NCBI GenBank assembly: GCA_027488975.1
Contig: JAIYAQ010000024.1
Coordinates: 1-64,000 of the forward strand
From: Cyanobium sp. E1_MAG_00006
GTDB taxonomy: Bacteria; Cyanobacteriota; Cyanobacteriia; PCC-6307; Cyanobiaceae
Length of the DNA stretch: 64,000 nt
Reading direction: 5' to 3'
The position numbers and the translations under genes are program-made. The notes under the pieces are model-generated. The model ran no database searches, was not told the DNA's origin, and saw nothing but the letters and a program-made list of their open reading frames with translations. Below, piece after piece: positions 32,481 to 47,007 of the stretch; the first letter of the stretch is position 1, and every line of letters starts with the position of its first letter.

Positions 32481-32882
32481 ATGAGTTTTGACGCCCGCAG
32501 CCTCGAGCGCCTGCAGCAGCTGGGCCGCAGCCTGCCCCAGCCCCTGCCCAAACCCACCCCCAAGGCCTCGCCAGACGCACCGCCTGGCCAGCGGCTGCAC
32601 CCCGTGGAAACGGAGGAGAACCCCGAGGCCCTGTTCCGCGAACTGATGACAGTGAGCCCGGATGGCAGCGTGCCACCGCACCTGCTCGAGCGCCTGCGCG
32701 ATCTGGAGGCGAGCCGCCGCGACGCTGCCGCCGCGTTGAACAACACCGCAAAGCCACGCGCTTCTGCCGCTCAGCCCCCGAGCCCTGCCGCGATCCGGGC
32801 GCGGAGCGGTGCACAGAACTCCGACGAGGACAATCTCTACGTGGCCTTTCAGCAGCTGCTGCTGGAGGACGAGGACAGCTGA
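32481..32882 (+). CDS. Hypothetical Pro/Ala-rich protein (133 aa)
   Basis: 133 aa, soluble, low complexity with a Pro-rich segment (about 18-40) and an acidic ending (DEDNLYVAFQQLLLEDEDS). The middle (ENPEALFRELMTVSPDGSVPPHLLERLRDLE) looks like a conserved helical motif. I do not recognise it. The stop codon lies inside a perfect 9-bp hairpin. Confidence 0.65.
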   Translation: MSFDARSLERLQQLGRSLPQPLPKPTPKASPDAPPGQRLHPVETEENPEALFRELMTVSPDGSVPPHLLERLRDLEASRRDAAAALNNTAKPRASAAQPPSPAAIRARSGAQNSDEDNLYVAFQQLLLEDEDS

Positions 32883-32896
32883 GCTCCGCTCAGCTG
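32876..32896 (+). terminator. Perfect 9-bp hairpin over a stop codon, no T-run
   Basis: CAGCTGAGC pairs with GCTCAGCTG around TCC; the TGA in the left arm is the stop codon at 32880-32882. A second smaller inverted repeat (CTGTCC-N4-GGACAG) follows 16 bases on. No T-run. Probably a transcription or RNA 3'-end signal. Confidence 0.5.
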
Positions 32897-32972
32897 GTGT
32901 GGCTGAAATCCTCTGTCCACGAGGACAGCGGCATCAGAACGTTCACAGACTCCTGACTTGGTGCAATGGTCC

Positions 32973-33734
32973 TCAAATCTTGAAACTAGTCCGCGGAGTC
33001 CCCTCTCCTGCAACCCGCCTTGACTCCCCCAAAGGAAGTTGCACTGGCGGATTCATTGGACGGACTGTTGATGGTCCCCCGAGAGAATCGCCCGGTCTGC
33101 GTGCTGCTACCGCAGCGAAGCAGGCCAGGCCTGGATCGTGGTAGCCATAGCAGAGCACGCGTTTCCCATGCTTGACGATGCCCTGCAGTGAATAGAGATA
33201 CGGCCTGTAGAGACGGCGCTGCGCCAGGCGTTGATACACGGACGGTCCCATCAGCAACTGAAAGGGCGCCGCCAGCGACATCAGACGCTGAGCGTTATTG
33301 ACACCCAAGCCAACAAAATTACGCCGTCTGCCGCCGATATCCACTACCACGTTGTCTTGGTTTTCATTCAGACCGACTCGAATCGAATAGCGCAATTCTT
33401 CCTCAACAGCTGCCATGCTCAGCGCATAGACGCTCTCAAGCAGCATCACGGCGACCCTGACGTCCAAGTCATAGGGCTCAGACTGATCAATCAGGCAAAT
33501 ACATACACCATCACCGGTTGGCAGATAGACCACCCGATCCGCCTCCAACTCAAACGCCGCCATCGACTGCCTCACACAGCGAGACAGCGACTCCATGATC
33601 GCAACCTGCGCCTCTACATTGCGGTCAAGGGTGAACTTGACGATGTCGACGTAGATGTATCGCACAAGTGCGATGCGACCTGCGGTGATGGCAGCAACGA
33701 ACCAGCTCCTACGCAAGTGCGCAACGTGCGCCAT
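32973..33734 (-). CDS. Class III nucleotidyl cyclase-like domain protein, atypical
   Basis: 253 aa. The core resembles class III adenylyl/guanylyl cyclases: metal-binding Asp30 (VDIVKFT) and Asp75 (PTGDGVCI), and the transition-state Asn146/Arg150 pair in VNNAQRL. The purine-selecting Lys is not evident (VVYLPTGDG), and the Asp equivalent is Asn139. Only about 25 residues precede the domain, and the last 45 residues are unlike it, so it may be truncated. The sequence is lower in GC than its neighbours and has different codon use, suggesting transfer. Activity is uncertain. Confidence 0.65.
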   Translation of the reverse strand: MAHVAHLRRSWFVAAITAGRIALVRYIYVDIVKFTLDRNVEAQVAIMESLSRCVRQSMAAFELEADRVVYLPTGDGVCICLIDQSEPYDLDVRVAVMLLESVYALSMAAVEEELRYSIRVGLNENQDNVVVDIGGRRRNFVGLGVNNAQRLMSLAAPFQLLMGPSVYQRLAQRRLYRPYLYSLQGIVKHGKRVLCYGYHDPGLACFAAVAARRPGDSLGGPSTVRPMNPPVQLPLGESRRVAGEGTPRTSFKI

Positions 33735-33912
33735 GACACCAACTCGATCCAGGTATCACACGCCTCCAGGTCGCACGACCCAAGACGCCCGCGCGAATTG
33801 CCAAACCGTGCGTCGATCGGCCCTCCATTTCTAAAGCAATTCCACAACAATCAGGACCCCACCCCCAAGGGCCGACGCGCAGACAGAGCCCCAATCAGAA
33901 CCACCCTCAGAA

Positions 33913-33926
33913 GTTCATCTGTACTA
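33913..33926 (+). promoter_or_regulatory. Candidate LexA (SOS) box upstream of umuDC
   Basis: AGTTCATCTGTACT matches the cyanobacterial LexA motif RGTACNNNDGTWCB with one mismatch (GTTC for GTAC in the left half) and is nearly palindromic. It ends 19 bases before the umuD ATG, a sensible operator position. Its regulatory role is inferred from position and the target genes. Confidence 0.6.
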
Positions 33927-33945
33927 ACCTGATGGTCTGTTCCGG

Positions 33946-34443
33946 ATGGCCGGCGTGTCCCGCTCTGCAGCACCCCTGCCCCCTGTGCTCGCGGCCCCTG
34001 CGCTGACCCTGCTGGGCCCCGCGCAGGGGCCGCTGCCATGGCCACAGCTGCCGCTTCCCCTGGCGGGTGAGAGCGTGGCGGCCGGCTTTCCCAGCCCCGC
34101 CGACGACTACATCGACGTTGGCATCGACCTCAACGACACGCTGATCCGCCACCCCAGCAGCACCTTCTTCCTGCGGGTGAGCGGCGACTCGATGACCGGC
34201 GCCGGCATCCAGCACGGCGATCTGCTGGTGGTGGACCGCAGCCTCGAGGCCCGGCCCGGCCAGATCGTGGTGGCGGTGCTGGATGGGGCCTTCACCCTCA
34301 AGCGGCTGGTGCACCACCGCGGCCGGCTGCGGCTGGAGGCCGCCAACAGCGCCTACCCGCCCCTGGAACTGCACCAATGCGGCGACGTGCAGATCTGGGG
34401 TGTGGCGATCCACGTGATCCACAGCTTCAGCCGCCATGGCTGA
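33946..34443 (+). CDS. umuD: UmuD-like autoproteolytic subunit of DNA polymerase V
   Basis: 165 aa, LexA/UmuD S24 family. Predicted cleavage at the Ala-Gly of AAGFPSP (near residue 45), nucleophile Ser82 in GDSM and catalytic Lys119 in FTLKRL. After RecA-assisted self-cleavage UmuD' pairs with UmuC for translesion synthesis. The N-terminal 40 residues are Pro/Ala-rich. It overlaps umuC by eight bases. Confidence 0.93.
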   Translation: MAGVSRSAAPLPPVLAAPALTLLGPAQGPLPWPQLPLPLAGESVAAGFPSPADDYIDVGIDLNDTLIRHPSSTFFLRVSGDSMTGAGIQHGDLLVVDRSLEARPGQIVVAVLDGAFTLKRLVHHRGRLRLEAANSAYPPLELHQCGDVQIWGVAIHVIHSFSRHG

Positions 34444-35713
34444 TGCCCTGGTGCTGATCGATGCCAACAACTTCTATGCCAGCTGCGAGCAGGCCCTCGA
34501 TCCGGCGCTGCTGGGGCGGCCGGTGGTGGTGCTCTCCAACAACGACGGCTGCGTGGTGTCGCGCAGCAGCGAGGCACGCCAGCTGGGCATCGCCATGGGT
34601 CGCCCCTACTTCCAGATCGCCGAGCAGCTGGCCCACCACGGCGTGGTGGTGCGCAGCTCCAACTACGCCCTCTACGGCGACATGAGCCAGCGGCTGATGA
34701 GCAGCCTCGAACCCTGGGTGGCCGAGCTGGAGGTGTACTCGATCGATGAGGCTTTCGCCCGGCTGCCGCGCCCCCGCGGCGGCGACCTCAGCCCCTGGGC
34801 ACGCGAGCTGCGCAGCCGCATCCGCCAGAACCTGGGGCTGCCGATCGCCATCGGCATCGCCCCCAGCAAGGTGCTGGCCAAGCTGGCCAACCGCATCGCC
34901 AAGGCCGATAGCCGCCACGCCGGCCTGTTCGACCTCAGCCGCCAGGCGGACCCCGACCCCTGGCTGGAGGGCACACCGGTGGAGGAGCTCTGGGGGGTGG
35001 GCCGGCGCCTGGGCCGCTGGTGCCGCCTGCGCAGCATCGCCAACGCCCGCCAGCTGCGCGACATGGCCAGCGGCGAGCTGCGGGCCAAGGCCGGCGTGGT
35101 GGGGGTGCGGCTGCAGCTGGAGCTGCGCGGGGTGAGCTGCCTGCCGCTGGAGGAGGCCCCCGCCGCCAAACGGGAAACCTGCGTCAGCCGCAGCTTCAGC
35201 CGACCGATCAGCGAGCTGGAGGACCTGCGCCAGGCGGTGGCCAGCTACGTGGTGCGGGCGGCGGAGAAGCTGCGGCGGCAGCGGCAGCGGGCCGGCCGGC
35301 TCACGGTGTTCGCCCGCACCAGCCCCTTCGCACCGAACTTCTTCAGCCGCGCCGCCGGCGTGGAGCTGCCCCTGGCCAGCCACGACACCGCCGTGCTGCT
35401 GCAGGCCGCCCTGCAGCTGGTGCCAGCCCTGCACCGCCCCCACCGGCGCTTCGTCAAAGCCGGCGTACTGCTGCAGGATCTGCAGCCGGAAACCCAGCTG
35501 CAGCAGCACCTGCTGGCACCTCTGCCTCCGGAGCAGCAGCAGCGGCGCGAAGCGCTGATGGCCTGCATCGATGGCCTCAACCGCCGCTACGGCACCGGCA
35601 CCGTGCAGTGGGCCGCCTGCGGCCTCCAGCCGGATTGGGCGATGCGGCGGCAACAGCTGTCGCGCGCCGCCACCACACGCCTGGATGATCTGCCCACGGT
35701 GTGGGCGCGCTGA
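34436..35713 (+). CDS. umuC: UmuC-like Y-family DNA polymerase V catalytic subunit
   Basis: 425 aa. VLIDANNFYASCEQ and YSIDEAF carry the catalytic carboxylates of Y-family polymerases; SNYALYGDMSQR, GIGIAPSKVLAKLANRIAK and the little-finger region follow, ending with the UmuC C-terminal domain. It gives error-prone bypass of lesions. The gene is very GC-rich, unlike the upstream cyclase-like gene. A 12-bp hairpin covers its stop codon. Confidence 0.95.
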   Translation: MADALVLIDANNFYASCEQALDPALLGRPVVVLSNNDGCVVSRSSEARQLGIAMGRPYFQIAEQLAHHGVVVRSSNYALYGDMSQRLMSSLEPWVAELEVYSIDEAFARLPRPRGGDLSPWARELRSRIRQNLGLPIAIGIAPSKVLAKLANRIAKADSRHAGLFDLSRQADPDPWLEGTPVEELWGVGRRLGRWCRLRSIANARQLRDMASGELRAKAGVVGVRLQLELRGVSCLPLEEAPAAKRETCVSRSFSRPISELEDLRQAVASYVVRAAEKLRRQRQRAGRLTVFARTSPFAPNFFSRAAGVELPLASHDTAVLLQAALQLVPALHRPHRRFVKAGVLLQDLQPETQLQQHLLAPLPPEQQQRREALMACIDGLNRRYGTGTVQWAACGLQPDWAMRRQQLSRAATTRLDDLPTVWAR

Positions 35714-42991: not shown

Positions 42992-43435
42992 ATGGCGGGC
43001 AAGGGAAAGGCCAGCAGCGGCCAGCCCAAGGGCGGCGGCGGCATCAGCCCAACCCCGGCCGCCCAGTCGCCGAAACCTCCCCGCAGCGGAGCCGCCACTC
43101 AGGGGCAGAAGCGGGGTCAGCAATCGATCCCTGAGGCGGTGACCAACCGCATGGCCCGGAGGATTGCCATTGCCACGGGGATTCCCACTGTGCTGGGCAT
43201 GTCCACCTTCGTGATCAGCTACCTGCTGGTGAGCCGGTCGGTGCTGGATATCCCCCCCGTCGTCACCCTGGTGACGTCCGGTGGATTTTTCCTGCTGGGG
43301 GTGGTGGGCCTGAGCTACGGAGTGCTCTCGGCCAGCTGGGAAAACGCCCCGGGGAGCCTGCTCGGGTTTGAGCAGATCGGCTTGAACGTGAGTCGGCTGC
43401 GCAGCTCCTTCAAGCGGCCACCAGCGGCGAGCTGA
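42992..43435 (+). CDS. PAM68-like photosystem II assembly factor (DUF3464)
   Basis: 147 aa. A basic, Gly/Pro/Gln-rich disordered N-terminus (1-50) is followed by two membrane segments ([18 protein letters not shown] and [21 protein letters not shown]) and [20 protein letters not shown], the PAM68/DUF3464 signature. Homologues assist photosystem II biogenesis and chlorophyll insertion into CP47. The 3' end overlaps dnaE convergently by 26 bases. Confidence 0.88.
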
Positions 43436-46400
43436 TCCGGGCGCGGAAGGCCTGGGCGGTGAGCGTGCCGAGGGCTGCCTCGCCGTCCTTCACACAGAAC
43501 TGCTGCCCCAGCCGCACGTAACGGATCTGATCCTGGTGACGCACCAGGGCAACCACCGGGACCCGGAGACCCGCGTCATCCCGCTCGCTGCGGTGCTGGT
43601 TGAGGCATTCCCGCAGGCGATGCTGCACAGCGATGTCGCTGGCCTCATCGGCCTGCAGTTCCACCATCAGCAAGCGCAGGTCGTCGATCACGCAGCAGTC
43701 GTCGACGATCAACTGCACCTGCTCGTCACGGCGATCCACCGAAGCCCACACCAGCAGACGGGCATCCACCATCAGGTGATCGGCGAGGCGGGCGTAGGTC
43801 TTGGGAAAGACAACCCCTTCGCAGCTGCCGCTCAGATCCTCCAGCTGCAGCACTGCCATGCGGTCGCCCTTGCGGGTGGTCACCGGCCGTAGACCGGAGA
43901 CCATCGCCACCACGCTGACGCGCGCCTTGTCGGCCTGTTCCTCCAGGCTGCCCAGGGCCAGAGGCGAGAGCAGCTGCATCGGCCGGCAGAGCTGCTTGAG
44001 CGGGTGATCGGAGAGATAGAAGCCCACCAGCTCCTTCTCCAGCCGCAACTTCTCGGTGGGGGGGTAATCGGCCACCGGCGCGGCCTTGGGAGCGGTGCTC
44101 AGATCGGTGCCGGCATCTGGGGCGCCAGCAGCACCAACTCCACCGCCCAGCAGGTCGAACAGGTTGCCCTGGCCGCTGGCGCGATCGCGGGCGCGGGAGG
44201 CGGCCCAGTCGGCGATCAGATCCAGATCGGCCATCAGCTGGGCGCGGTTGGCGCTGGGCTCGAGTGCGTCGAGGGCACCGCAGTGGATCAGCGATTCGAG
44301 CGAGCGGCGGTTGAGGGTGCTGCCGGGGATGCGGTCACAGAGCTCCGCCAGCGAGCGGAACGGTCCATCGCTGCTGCGGGCTTCGATCAGGGTGCGGATG
44401 GCGCCATCACCGAGATTGCGCACGGCCGAGAGGCCGAAGAGGATGCGATCGCCCACAGGGGTGAAGTCAATGCCGGAGGCATTCACATCCGGCGGCATCA
44501 CCTCGATGCCCATGGCATTGCAGTTGGCGATGTAGCGCTGCACCTTGTCGGTGGTGCCGGCATTCACCGTCAACAATGCGGCCATGTAGGCCACAGGATA
44601 GTGGGCCTTGAGGTAAGCGGTCTGATAGGTCACCGCGCCGTAGGCGGTGGAATGGCTCTTGTTGAAGCAGTATTCGGCGAACAGCACCATCTGTTCGAAC
44701 AGTGCCTCGGCAATCTTCGGATCGACGCCACGCTGACTGGCCCCGCTCACGAACAGCGACTGATGCTTCTCCATCTCGCTCTTCTTCTTCTTACCCATGG
44801 CCCGCCGCAACAGGTCGGCCTCACCGAGCGAATACCCCGCAAGATCCTGAGCGATGCGCATGATCTGCTCCTGGTAAACCATGATCCCGTAGGTCTCCTG
44901 CAGGATCGGTTCGAGCTTGGCGTGGGCGAAATCGATCGCCTCGCGGCCGTGCTTGCGGTTGATGAACTTCGGGATCAGCCCGGCATCGAGCGGGCCCGGG
45001 CGATACAGCGCCAGGATCGAGGAGATGTCCTCCAAGGATGAGGGCTTGAGGTCGCGCACGATCTGGCGCATGCCACTGGATTCCAACTGGAAGATGCCCT
45101 CAAGATCGCCGCGGGCCAGCAGCCCGTAGGTGCCGGGGTCATCAAGAGGAAGTTTGTCGGGATCGACGGCAACACCGGTGCTCTGCTGCACCAGATCAAT
45201 CGTCTTGTCGATCATGGTGAGGTTCTTCAGGCCCAGAAAATCCATCTTCAGCAGGCCCATCGACTCCACGTCCTCCATGAAGTACTGGGTGATCACCTGG
45301 CCGTCGTTGTTGCGCTGCAGCGGCACCAGCTCATCGAGCGGTTCAGCCGCGATCACCACACCGGCCGCGTGGACGCCAAAGGTCTTGTTGGTGCCCTCGA
45401 TCCGCATCGCCATCTCAACCCAGCGCTTCACCTGCGGATCGTTCTGGTACTTCTCACGGAACTCCGGTGCCGGCGATTCCTCGCCGATCATCTCCTTCAG
45501 CTTGGCGGGTTTGCCACGCACCACCGGAATCAACTTCGCCAGGCGGTCGGCATCGCCGTAGGGAATGTCGAGCACACGCGCCACATCCTTGAGCACCGCC
45601 TTCGAGGTCATGCGGTTGAAGGTGATGATCTGGGCCACCTTGTCGTCGCCATAACGGCGAGTGACGTAGTCGATCACCTCGCCACGGCGCTCGATGCAGA
45701 AGTCGGTGTCAATATCCGGCATCGACTTGCGTTCCGGATTGAGGAAGCGTTCGAACAGCAGTCCGTTCGTGACTGGATCGATGTTGGTGATACCCAGGGC
45801 GTAGGCCACCAGCGAGCCGGCGGCCGATCCACGGCCAGGGCCCACCGGGATACCGCTGTCACGGGCAAAGCGGATGTAGTCCCACACCACCAGGAAGTAG
45901 GTGGGAAAGCCCATCTGCTCCATCACCTGCAGCTCGAAGCTGAGGCGCTCGCCGTACTCCGGCGTGAACGGCGCACCGGCCGTTAGTTCCAACCGATCGC
46001 GCAGGCCCTGCTCACTCACCTCGCGCAGGTAGCTCACCGGCGTGTGTCCCTCCGGAATCGGGAAGTTTGGCATCTGGTAGCGGCCGAGGATGTCGTAGTC
46101 CTCCACCTTCTCGGCGGCGCGGGCGGTGTTGGCCACGGCTTCGGCCACCACCTCGGGCTCGAGATGATCGGCGAACAGGCCGAGCATCTCCTGCTCGCTC
46201 TTGATGTATTCGGTGCCGGTGTAACGCAGGCGCTTCTCATCGGTGACAAGCTTGCCGGTGAGCACGCACAGCAGGGCGTCGTGAGCCTCGGCGTCGTTGG
46301 CGGTGAGGTAGTGGGCGTCGTTGGTGGCGATCAGCGGAATGCCCAGCTCGCGCGCGATGCGCACCATTTCCACGTTGACGATGCGGTCCTCAGGGGAGCC

Positions 46401-46943
46401 GTGGTCCTGGATCTCCAGGTAGTAGTCGTCGCCGAAGACACCCTGATACCAGCGGGCCACCTCACGGGCCACATCGGGGCGGTTGCGCAGGATCGCCTGG
46501 GAGATCTCACCACCGAGGCAGGCGGTGGCCACCATGAGCCCTTCGCTGTGTTTCTCGAGGGTGGGCTTATCGATGCAGGCGCGCGAGAAGATGCCGCGCC
46601 CACGCATGCCACGGAGATGGCTGATGCTGGTGAGCTTGACGAGGTTGCGGTAGCCGACGACATTCTTGGCCAGCACCACCAGGTGGTAACGGCGTTCCTT
46701 CTTGGGCGGATTGGGGTCGTCGAGGGAGCCGTTGATCACATACATCTCGTTGCCGATGATCGGCTTCACGGATGTGCCCTTGCAAAGCTTCAGCAGCTCG
46801 ATGGCGCCGTACATGACACCGTGATCAGTGAGCGCCAGGGCCGGCATGCCAAGGTCCTCGGCCCGCTTCACCATCGCCGGCAGCTGGCTGGCACCATCCA
46901 GCAGGCTGTAGTCGCTGTGGTTGTGAAGCGGAACGAAGGCCAC
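43410..46943 (-). CDS. dnaE: DNA polymerase III alpha subunit (uninterrupted)
   Basis: 1177 aa, full-length replicative polymerase. PHP domain at the start ([20 protein letters not shown]), polymerase core with [18 protein letters not shown] and the [12 protein letters not shown] carboxylates, a beta-binding region and a C-terminal OB-fold. It is continuous across the site where other cyanobacteria carry the split DnaE intein: [14 protein letters not shown] at residues 758|759. The GTG at 46943 gives the canonical N-terminus; a TTG four codons upstream is the alternative. Confidence 0.97.
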
Positions 46944-47007
46944 AGGCGCAAGCAACAGCTGGTGGTCGGCGGCCTCAGGTTAAGGGCTCAACACCAGATC
47001 TAGTGCC

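Follow-up and report, generated by a model that had tools for sequence, protein, structure and literature searches.

A reading frame of 253 codons at positions 32973..33734 (minus strand) of a Cyanobium sp. E1_MAG_00006 contig is, at a probability of about 60%, a horizontally acquired orphan gene for a class III cyclase-homology protein of a rare subfamily, which has lost its C-terminus and whose core is constrained. The stretch of DNA analyzed here, 64,000 nucleotides in length, is referred to as the window. According to this reading the gene was probably drawn from low-GC, defence-like islands and was inserted between a gene for a 133-residue protein and umuDC, most simply before the species of the window separated from its relative G022. 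It would since have lost its C-terminal region and any partner, with the catalytic core kept under constraint in the window genome and the G022 copy dead.

The frame was present as originally predicted, 253 residues on the minus strand beside umuDC, with an ATG at 33734, and gave one match in its own genome. An alternative GTG start lies at 33663-33665 (codon 24), and residues 1-23 (33666..33734, minus strand) are perhaps outside the native protein, as the relative from Cyanobium sp. FGCU6 described below begins near the position that corresponds to residue 17-18. Motif positions, an AlphaFold2 model and structure comparison delimit a core of residues 24-203 (33126..33665, minus strand), and codons 204-253 with the stop form a tail (32973..33125, minus strand). 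To the left lies the gene for the 133-residue protein (32481..32882, plus strand) and to the right are a umuD-like gene (Peptidase_S24, 33946..34443, plus strand, identified by Pfam and a genus search) and a umuC-like gene encoding an IMS family polymerase (34436..35713, plus strand). No recognised partner adjoined the frame among the four neighbouring genes scanned with Pfam, which encode a pentapeptide protein, the 133-residue protein (no match), UmuD and UmuC. A pattern search also located an SOS-box-like AGTTC-NNN-TGTACT site just upstream of umuD at 33912..33925 on the plus strand (AGTTCATCTGTACT; the G022 counterpart is AGTTCACATGTACT), which may resemble the cyanobacterial LexA box. The same pattern matched 5 of 24 umuD upstream stretches, three of the five at other distances, and the site could also face the divergent cyclase gene, the ATG of which is about 178 bases away.

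Both metal-binding aspartates, D30 (33645-33647) and D75 (33510-33512), and the transition-state pair N146 (33297-33299) and R150 (33285-33287) were found where the original prediction had placed them. It had also claimed that the purine-selecting Lys and Asp were missing, and at these base-selecting positions the protein carries L71 and N139, which line up, without gaps, with Glu and Cys in guanylyl cyclase 3et6; alignment to 5oyh, unlike that to 3et6, has a 2-residue gap at the base-selecting loop. Since neither purine-type pair, Lys/Asp (ATP) or Glu/Cys (GTP), is present, the choice of product is left wide.

Sequence searches with the window protein gave little. It scored 15 bits against Pfam Guanylate_cyc (PF00211), for which the gathering cut-off is 21.9 bits, and this sub-threshold score counts against the reading as an acquired cyclase, although such a cut-off gauges detection rather than biochemistry; the FGCU6 relative reached 33.6 bits. 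No match was obtained in NCBIfam or PHROGs, nor in the PDB at E 0.1, and a two-sequence profile (A1) matched class III cyclases in the PDB at E 0.00013 and weaker. Residues 18-205 were modelled by AlphaFold2, with the window and FGCU6 proteins as input sequences, at a mean pLDDT of 79.1 and pTM of 0.77. Foldseek of this model gave 1wc0_A as the top solved structure (E 1.7e-09) and the VIA comparison gave 2bw7_B (Z 18.3, rmsd 3.5 over 176 residues), so that the structural check proposed with the original prediction returned class III cyclases as the closest solved folds. Single-sequence prediction of the whole 253-residue protein reached a pLDDT of 35.6, and the tail yielded no usable model. 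When the core model was compared with viral models, giant-virus and uncultured-phage cyclase-domain proteins were among the best rows. With the predicted catalytic fold, the two metal Asp and the Asn and Arg all present, residues 24-203 are, on the evidence of the model, a class III nucleotidyl cyclase homology domain. Conserved catalytic residues in such a fold would point to a cyclase that works as a dimer with two metals.

CyaC of Spirulina platensis (1wc0, 2bw7) and Cya2 (2w01) share the predicted core fold (Z 16.9-18.3 over 175-181 residues) at 14-16% identity. Both carry the class III metal Asp and the Asn/Arg pair; the window protein differs from them in its Leu71/Asn139 and in having no sensor domain. 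Alike in the pocket are CYTH-cyclase fusion proteins from two genomes of the family (loci L009 and L010, genomes G643 and G634), which have an IPTGDG loop and an Asn at the Asp position, but are only 27% identical to the window protein and carry an N-terminal CYTH domain (seen in L009; L010 is alike by eye). The L010 fusion appears to be split into two frames by a stop. The host genome has a further, more typical cyclase, which combines a 2Fe-2S and a cyclase domain (E 1.3e-19).

The GC content of the frame is 0.568 as compared to 0.674 for the whole window, and only 16 of 6324 sliding 762-base windows, the frame's own included, were as low or lower. The codon score of the core (-1.295) fell below all 36 reference frames (lowest -1.157, median -0.911), which were chosen mechanically and may include antisense frames. 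Low GC and deviant codon choice were thus borne out, but the patch is wider than the 33.15-33.9 kb first proposed: at the 762-base scale the lowest-GC patch of the window spans 32701-34072. One other patch with windows under 0.60 GC was found (44481-45792), inside a frame of 1181 residues at 43410-46955 which is presumably dnaE. By codon position, GC was 0.64/0.36/0.67 in the core, a normal coding profile, and 0.66/0.66/0.48 in codons 204-253, which lack coding composition; the C-terminal tail is therefore as odd as had been noted, and its composition suggests that the frame runs past the end of the surviving protein.

A umuD match was found in 24 of 25 genomes of the genus, the window's own counted, and the slot between the 133-residue gene and umuD (32883-33945 in the window) held the cyclase in two of them, the window genome and G022, with the same neighbours on both sides. 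At the other 22 umuD loci there was no cyclase match at E 1e-3. Depending on the genome, the slot contains the cyclase or a CBAH-type amide hydrolase, or is a short gap or another small one. In nine genomes (L014, L015, L016, L017, L018, L021, L027, L029, L031) the aligned ends of the two border genes were just 43-181 bases apart. Four genomes (L020, L026, L028, L030) had a slot frame of 397-432 residues, similar by eye; the one that was scanned, in L020, belongs to the CBAH family of amide hydrolases (PF02275, E 9.9e-52). In three of these loci just a part of the left gene could be identified, and in L028 it was recognised by eye only. Other gaps were present in L013, L022, L023 and L024; that of L013 carried a piece which by look resembles the hydrolase, and the small frame of L024 had no Pfam match. 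In L019, L025, L032, L033 and L034 no left gene was detected in the stretch examined. We conclude from these contents that the slot is variable and that the cyclase is an insertion common to two genomes. At L023, in a genome of 470 contigs, umuC aligned in two pieces with residues 140-171 missing, reflecting either a deletion or an assembly fault.

Relatives of the window protein were rare. Matches were obtained in 2 of 25 genomes of the genus (its own and G022) and in 3 of 300 genomes of a family sample, the third being Cyanobium sp. FGCU6 (G253). With the window protein as query we found no relative in the genome collection or among plasmids and phages. The FGCU6 relative as query matched FGCU6 itself alone in the genome collection and found no relative among plasmids, where a search at E up to 10 gave nine weak matches, seven of them annotated cyclases; viral contigs also held no relative. 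Across the phylum the FGCU6 query matched 1 of 386 genomes at E 1e-8, the window's own, and two of the 386 were matched by the domain profile at E 1e-10: again the window's own, and G480 with a more distant protein. Profile A1 matched 3 of 42 genomes of the FGCU6 genus at E 1e-4 and 5 of 400 genomes of the family at E 1e-6, the two CYTH-fusion genomes included in both counts. As the searches covered samples of a larger group, the rarity holds for the sample. The homologue search thus left one close intact relative, that of FGCU6, and in the same genus a broken copy. The G480 protein (L044:4475-8537, G480:C48) is 552 residues long, combines a class III cyclase domain (SPAGDGG motif) with a cyclic-nucleotide-binding domain (CNBD), and adjoins a caspase and FGE-sulfatase protein; such a protein may make a signal and receive it within a single chain, next to what is likely a death effector.

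The FGCU6 cyclase (JANWUR010000022, L007:6648-7676) is 343 residues long and 37% identical to the window protein over 187 residues, sharing LPTGDG and RRN..G.GV..AQR.M motifs. The two proteins begin at nearly the same point, the FGCU6 one two residues ahead of the aligned stretch, but this one carries an extra C-terminal region of about 156 residues after the shared domain, to which four family libraries gave no convincing match. Its gene is of low GC throughout (49-51%; core 49.5%, C-terminal part 50.7%) and sits in a 12-kb stretch of 46-63% GC, as compared to 65-73% from 12 to 30 kb of the contig, the first 30 kb of which were covered. Transposases, a DUF6602 gene, HicA/HicB and a TIR protein lie nearby, and by its gene content the stretch looks like a defence or conflict island, although with one close intact relative this genomic context comes from a single locus. 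The TIR protein has, by eye, a hydrophobic stretch after the TIR domain, and the island (L005:3924-10207) also encodes a 497-residue protein with no Pfam or PADLOC match. Two papers treat cNMP cyclase domains as building blocks of bacterial conflict systems, some of them presumed inactive (PMC7159879, PMC8195603), which is consistent with the proposed origin of the window gene in a defence gene pool without proving it.

The DUF6602 gene, which resembles NucC nucleases (PADLOC E 4.3e-08), ends 123 bases before the FGCU6 cyclase and was considered as a partner. This neighbourhood was seen once, in FGCU6, and at none of 18 further DUF6602 loci: no cyclase lay in the approximately 1.5-kb flanks of 13 cyanobacterial loci (profile A4; 13 of 386 genomes), and none was annotated within 3.5 kb of five plasmid loci, for which the gene table is incomplete. 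The window's own genome gave no DUF6602 match, and a literature search returned no mention of DUF6602, nor of PTGDG jointly with cyclase. Since the neighbourhood did not recur, no two-gene system is claimed.

Patchy presence, a variable slot, low GC and a close intact relative in the low-GC island of another genome together make transfer of the gene well supported. No clear orthologue of the same GC and length was found in sister genomes, the sole same-genus copy being broken, and the transfer idea stands. Of truncation at the two ends, that at the N-terminus found no support: the frame is open upstream for 7 codons only (260 versus 253 residues) and the relative starts at about the same place, so a remnant of a longer N-terminus in the gap 33735-33945 is unlikely. 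C-terminal truncation is likely because the relative is longer by about 156 residues at this end and the last 50 codons lack coding composition; the tail is probably run-on into non-coding DNA after loss of this region. Between 32300 and 34000 there was no recognisable remnant of the FGCU6 C-terminus or of its DUF6602 neighbour. A C-terminal remnant hidden by frameshift was also sought, and the best hit (E 0.29), on the plus strand inside the 133-residue gene, was taken as chance. The doubtful start codon and tail count against the reading as an acquired cyclase, and a gene which has lost such a region may be on its way out.

The gene could then be a decaying remnant without function, a truncated cyclase fragment which is being lost more slowly than the G022 copy. 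We consider this possible but rather unlikely. The missing C-terminal region, the tail without a coding signature and the lack of a recognised adjoining partner all fit it, as does the fate of the copy in G022, the closest genome of the genus by UmuD (91%). In that copy residues 22-162 can be aligned at 72% identity, two in-frame TAG codons interrupt the sequence, and similarity is lost after about residue 165. Against decay, all four catalytic residues are intact in the window protein and the core frame is open. The dN/dS of the pair was 0.31 (bootstrap 0.19-0.50) versus 0.07-0.27 for six neighbouring genes. When changes were polarised with FGCU6, a single outgroup at 37% identity, 13 of 15 residue changes, R150H and a stop at 26 among them, were assigned to G022 and the other 2 to the window (one-sided binomial p 0.0037; 0.0065 without counting the stop). 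The sequence was therefore preserved in the window copy and not in that of G022, and the core of the former seems still to be constrained, although this signal may date from before the truncation. For the pair, dS was 0.50, higher than in umuD, umuC, dnaG and ispE (0.22-0.30) but not higher than in the two genes to the left of the cyclase (0.43-0.56), which leaves some chance that the two copies were acquired separately.

On the reading as an acquired gene with a constrained core, the window protein belongs, from its residues, to a rare subfamily of the class III domain with the purine recognition residues replaced. A bolder proposal, which we regard as improbable, makes it the founding member of an undescribed conflict-associated cyclase subfamily in which a Leu/Asn and LPTGDG pocket would select a non-purine or unusual NTP, and which would be exchanged among picocyanobacteria on low-GC islands, here as a stand-alone signal maker beside SOS polymerase genes.

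It is more doubtful still that the protein is a Pycsar-like pyrimidine cyclase, making cUMP or cCMP in anti-phage defence, possibly with an unlinked receptor. The Pycsar enzymes (AnPycC 8jsz, BcPycC 7R65, EaPycC) are likewise small class III cyclases without the purine pair, and PADLOC returned PycC as the sole match of the window protein (PDLC02369, E 0.025, 12.1 bits) and as both matches of the FGCU6 relative (best E 0.0049), which moreover lies in a defence-like island; these model matches are, however, unconvincing. AnPycC (8jsz_A) matched the core model with Z 16.6 and rmsd 3.5 over 177 residues; this Z is 1.7 lower than that of the top row and shared by many others among the 50 best rows listed, in which BcPycC and EaPycC do not appear, a point that speaks neither way. 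Pycsar and other class III cyclases thus cannot be told apart by fold. Residues selecting UTP or CTP are given in PMC11224242 as F60/K104/F109 in AnPycC, F100/R142/Q144 in EaPycC and Y50/D94/R97 in BcPycC. Of the AnPycC and EaPycC residues, the sole one with a counterpart in the window protein is the aromatic at two positions ahead of the first metal Asp (Tyr28; F60/D62 in AnPycC and F100/D102 in EaPycC), and such an aromatic is also found in guanylyl cyclase 3et6; at -4, -2 and +3 from D75 the window protein has L71, T73 and C78, which differ from the residues of these two enzymes. No linked cyclic-pyrimidine effector (PycTIR or PycTM) was present among the four neighbouring genes scanned, and no CNBD effector gene adjoins the cyclase. 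The host genome gave nine CNBD matches, all on contigs other than that of the window. Seven of these proteins, some of them partial frames, were scanned: one is a CRP-type regulator, three have an ABC transporter region and three have a CNBD and nothing else recognised. PycTIR models match these last three within the CNBD stretch alone; no TIR domain (Pfam) and no obvious Pycsar effector was found in any of the seven.

A catalytically dead nucleotide-binding protein or dominant-negative regulator, a role proposed for some cNMP cyclase domains of bacterial conflict systems thought to be inactive (PMC7159879), would suit the absent base-selecting pair, the stand-alone gene and the lost C-terminal region, but it is very improbable given that both metal Asp and the Asn/Arg pair, needless for a mere binder, have been kept.

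The domain is known, and the window gene encodes a rare variant of it whose product is unproven. It offers a clear example of a transferred signalling gene between retention and decay, for which the dead G022 copy is a natural control. Should the core be active, then from what it makes one could judge whether a different base specificity within class III goes with the Leu/Asn pocket, and the enzyme would be a possible added nucleotide signal in picocyanobacteria.
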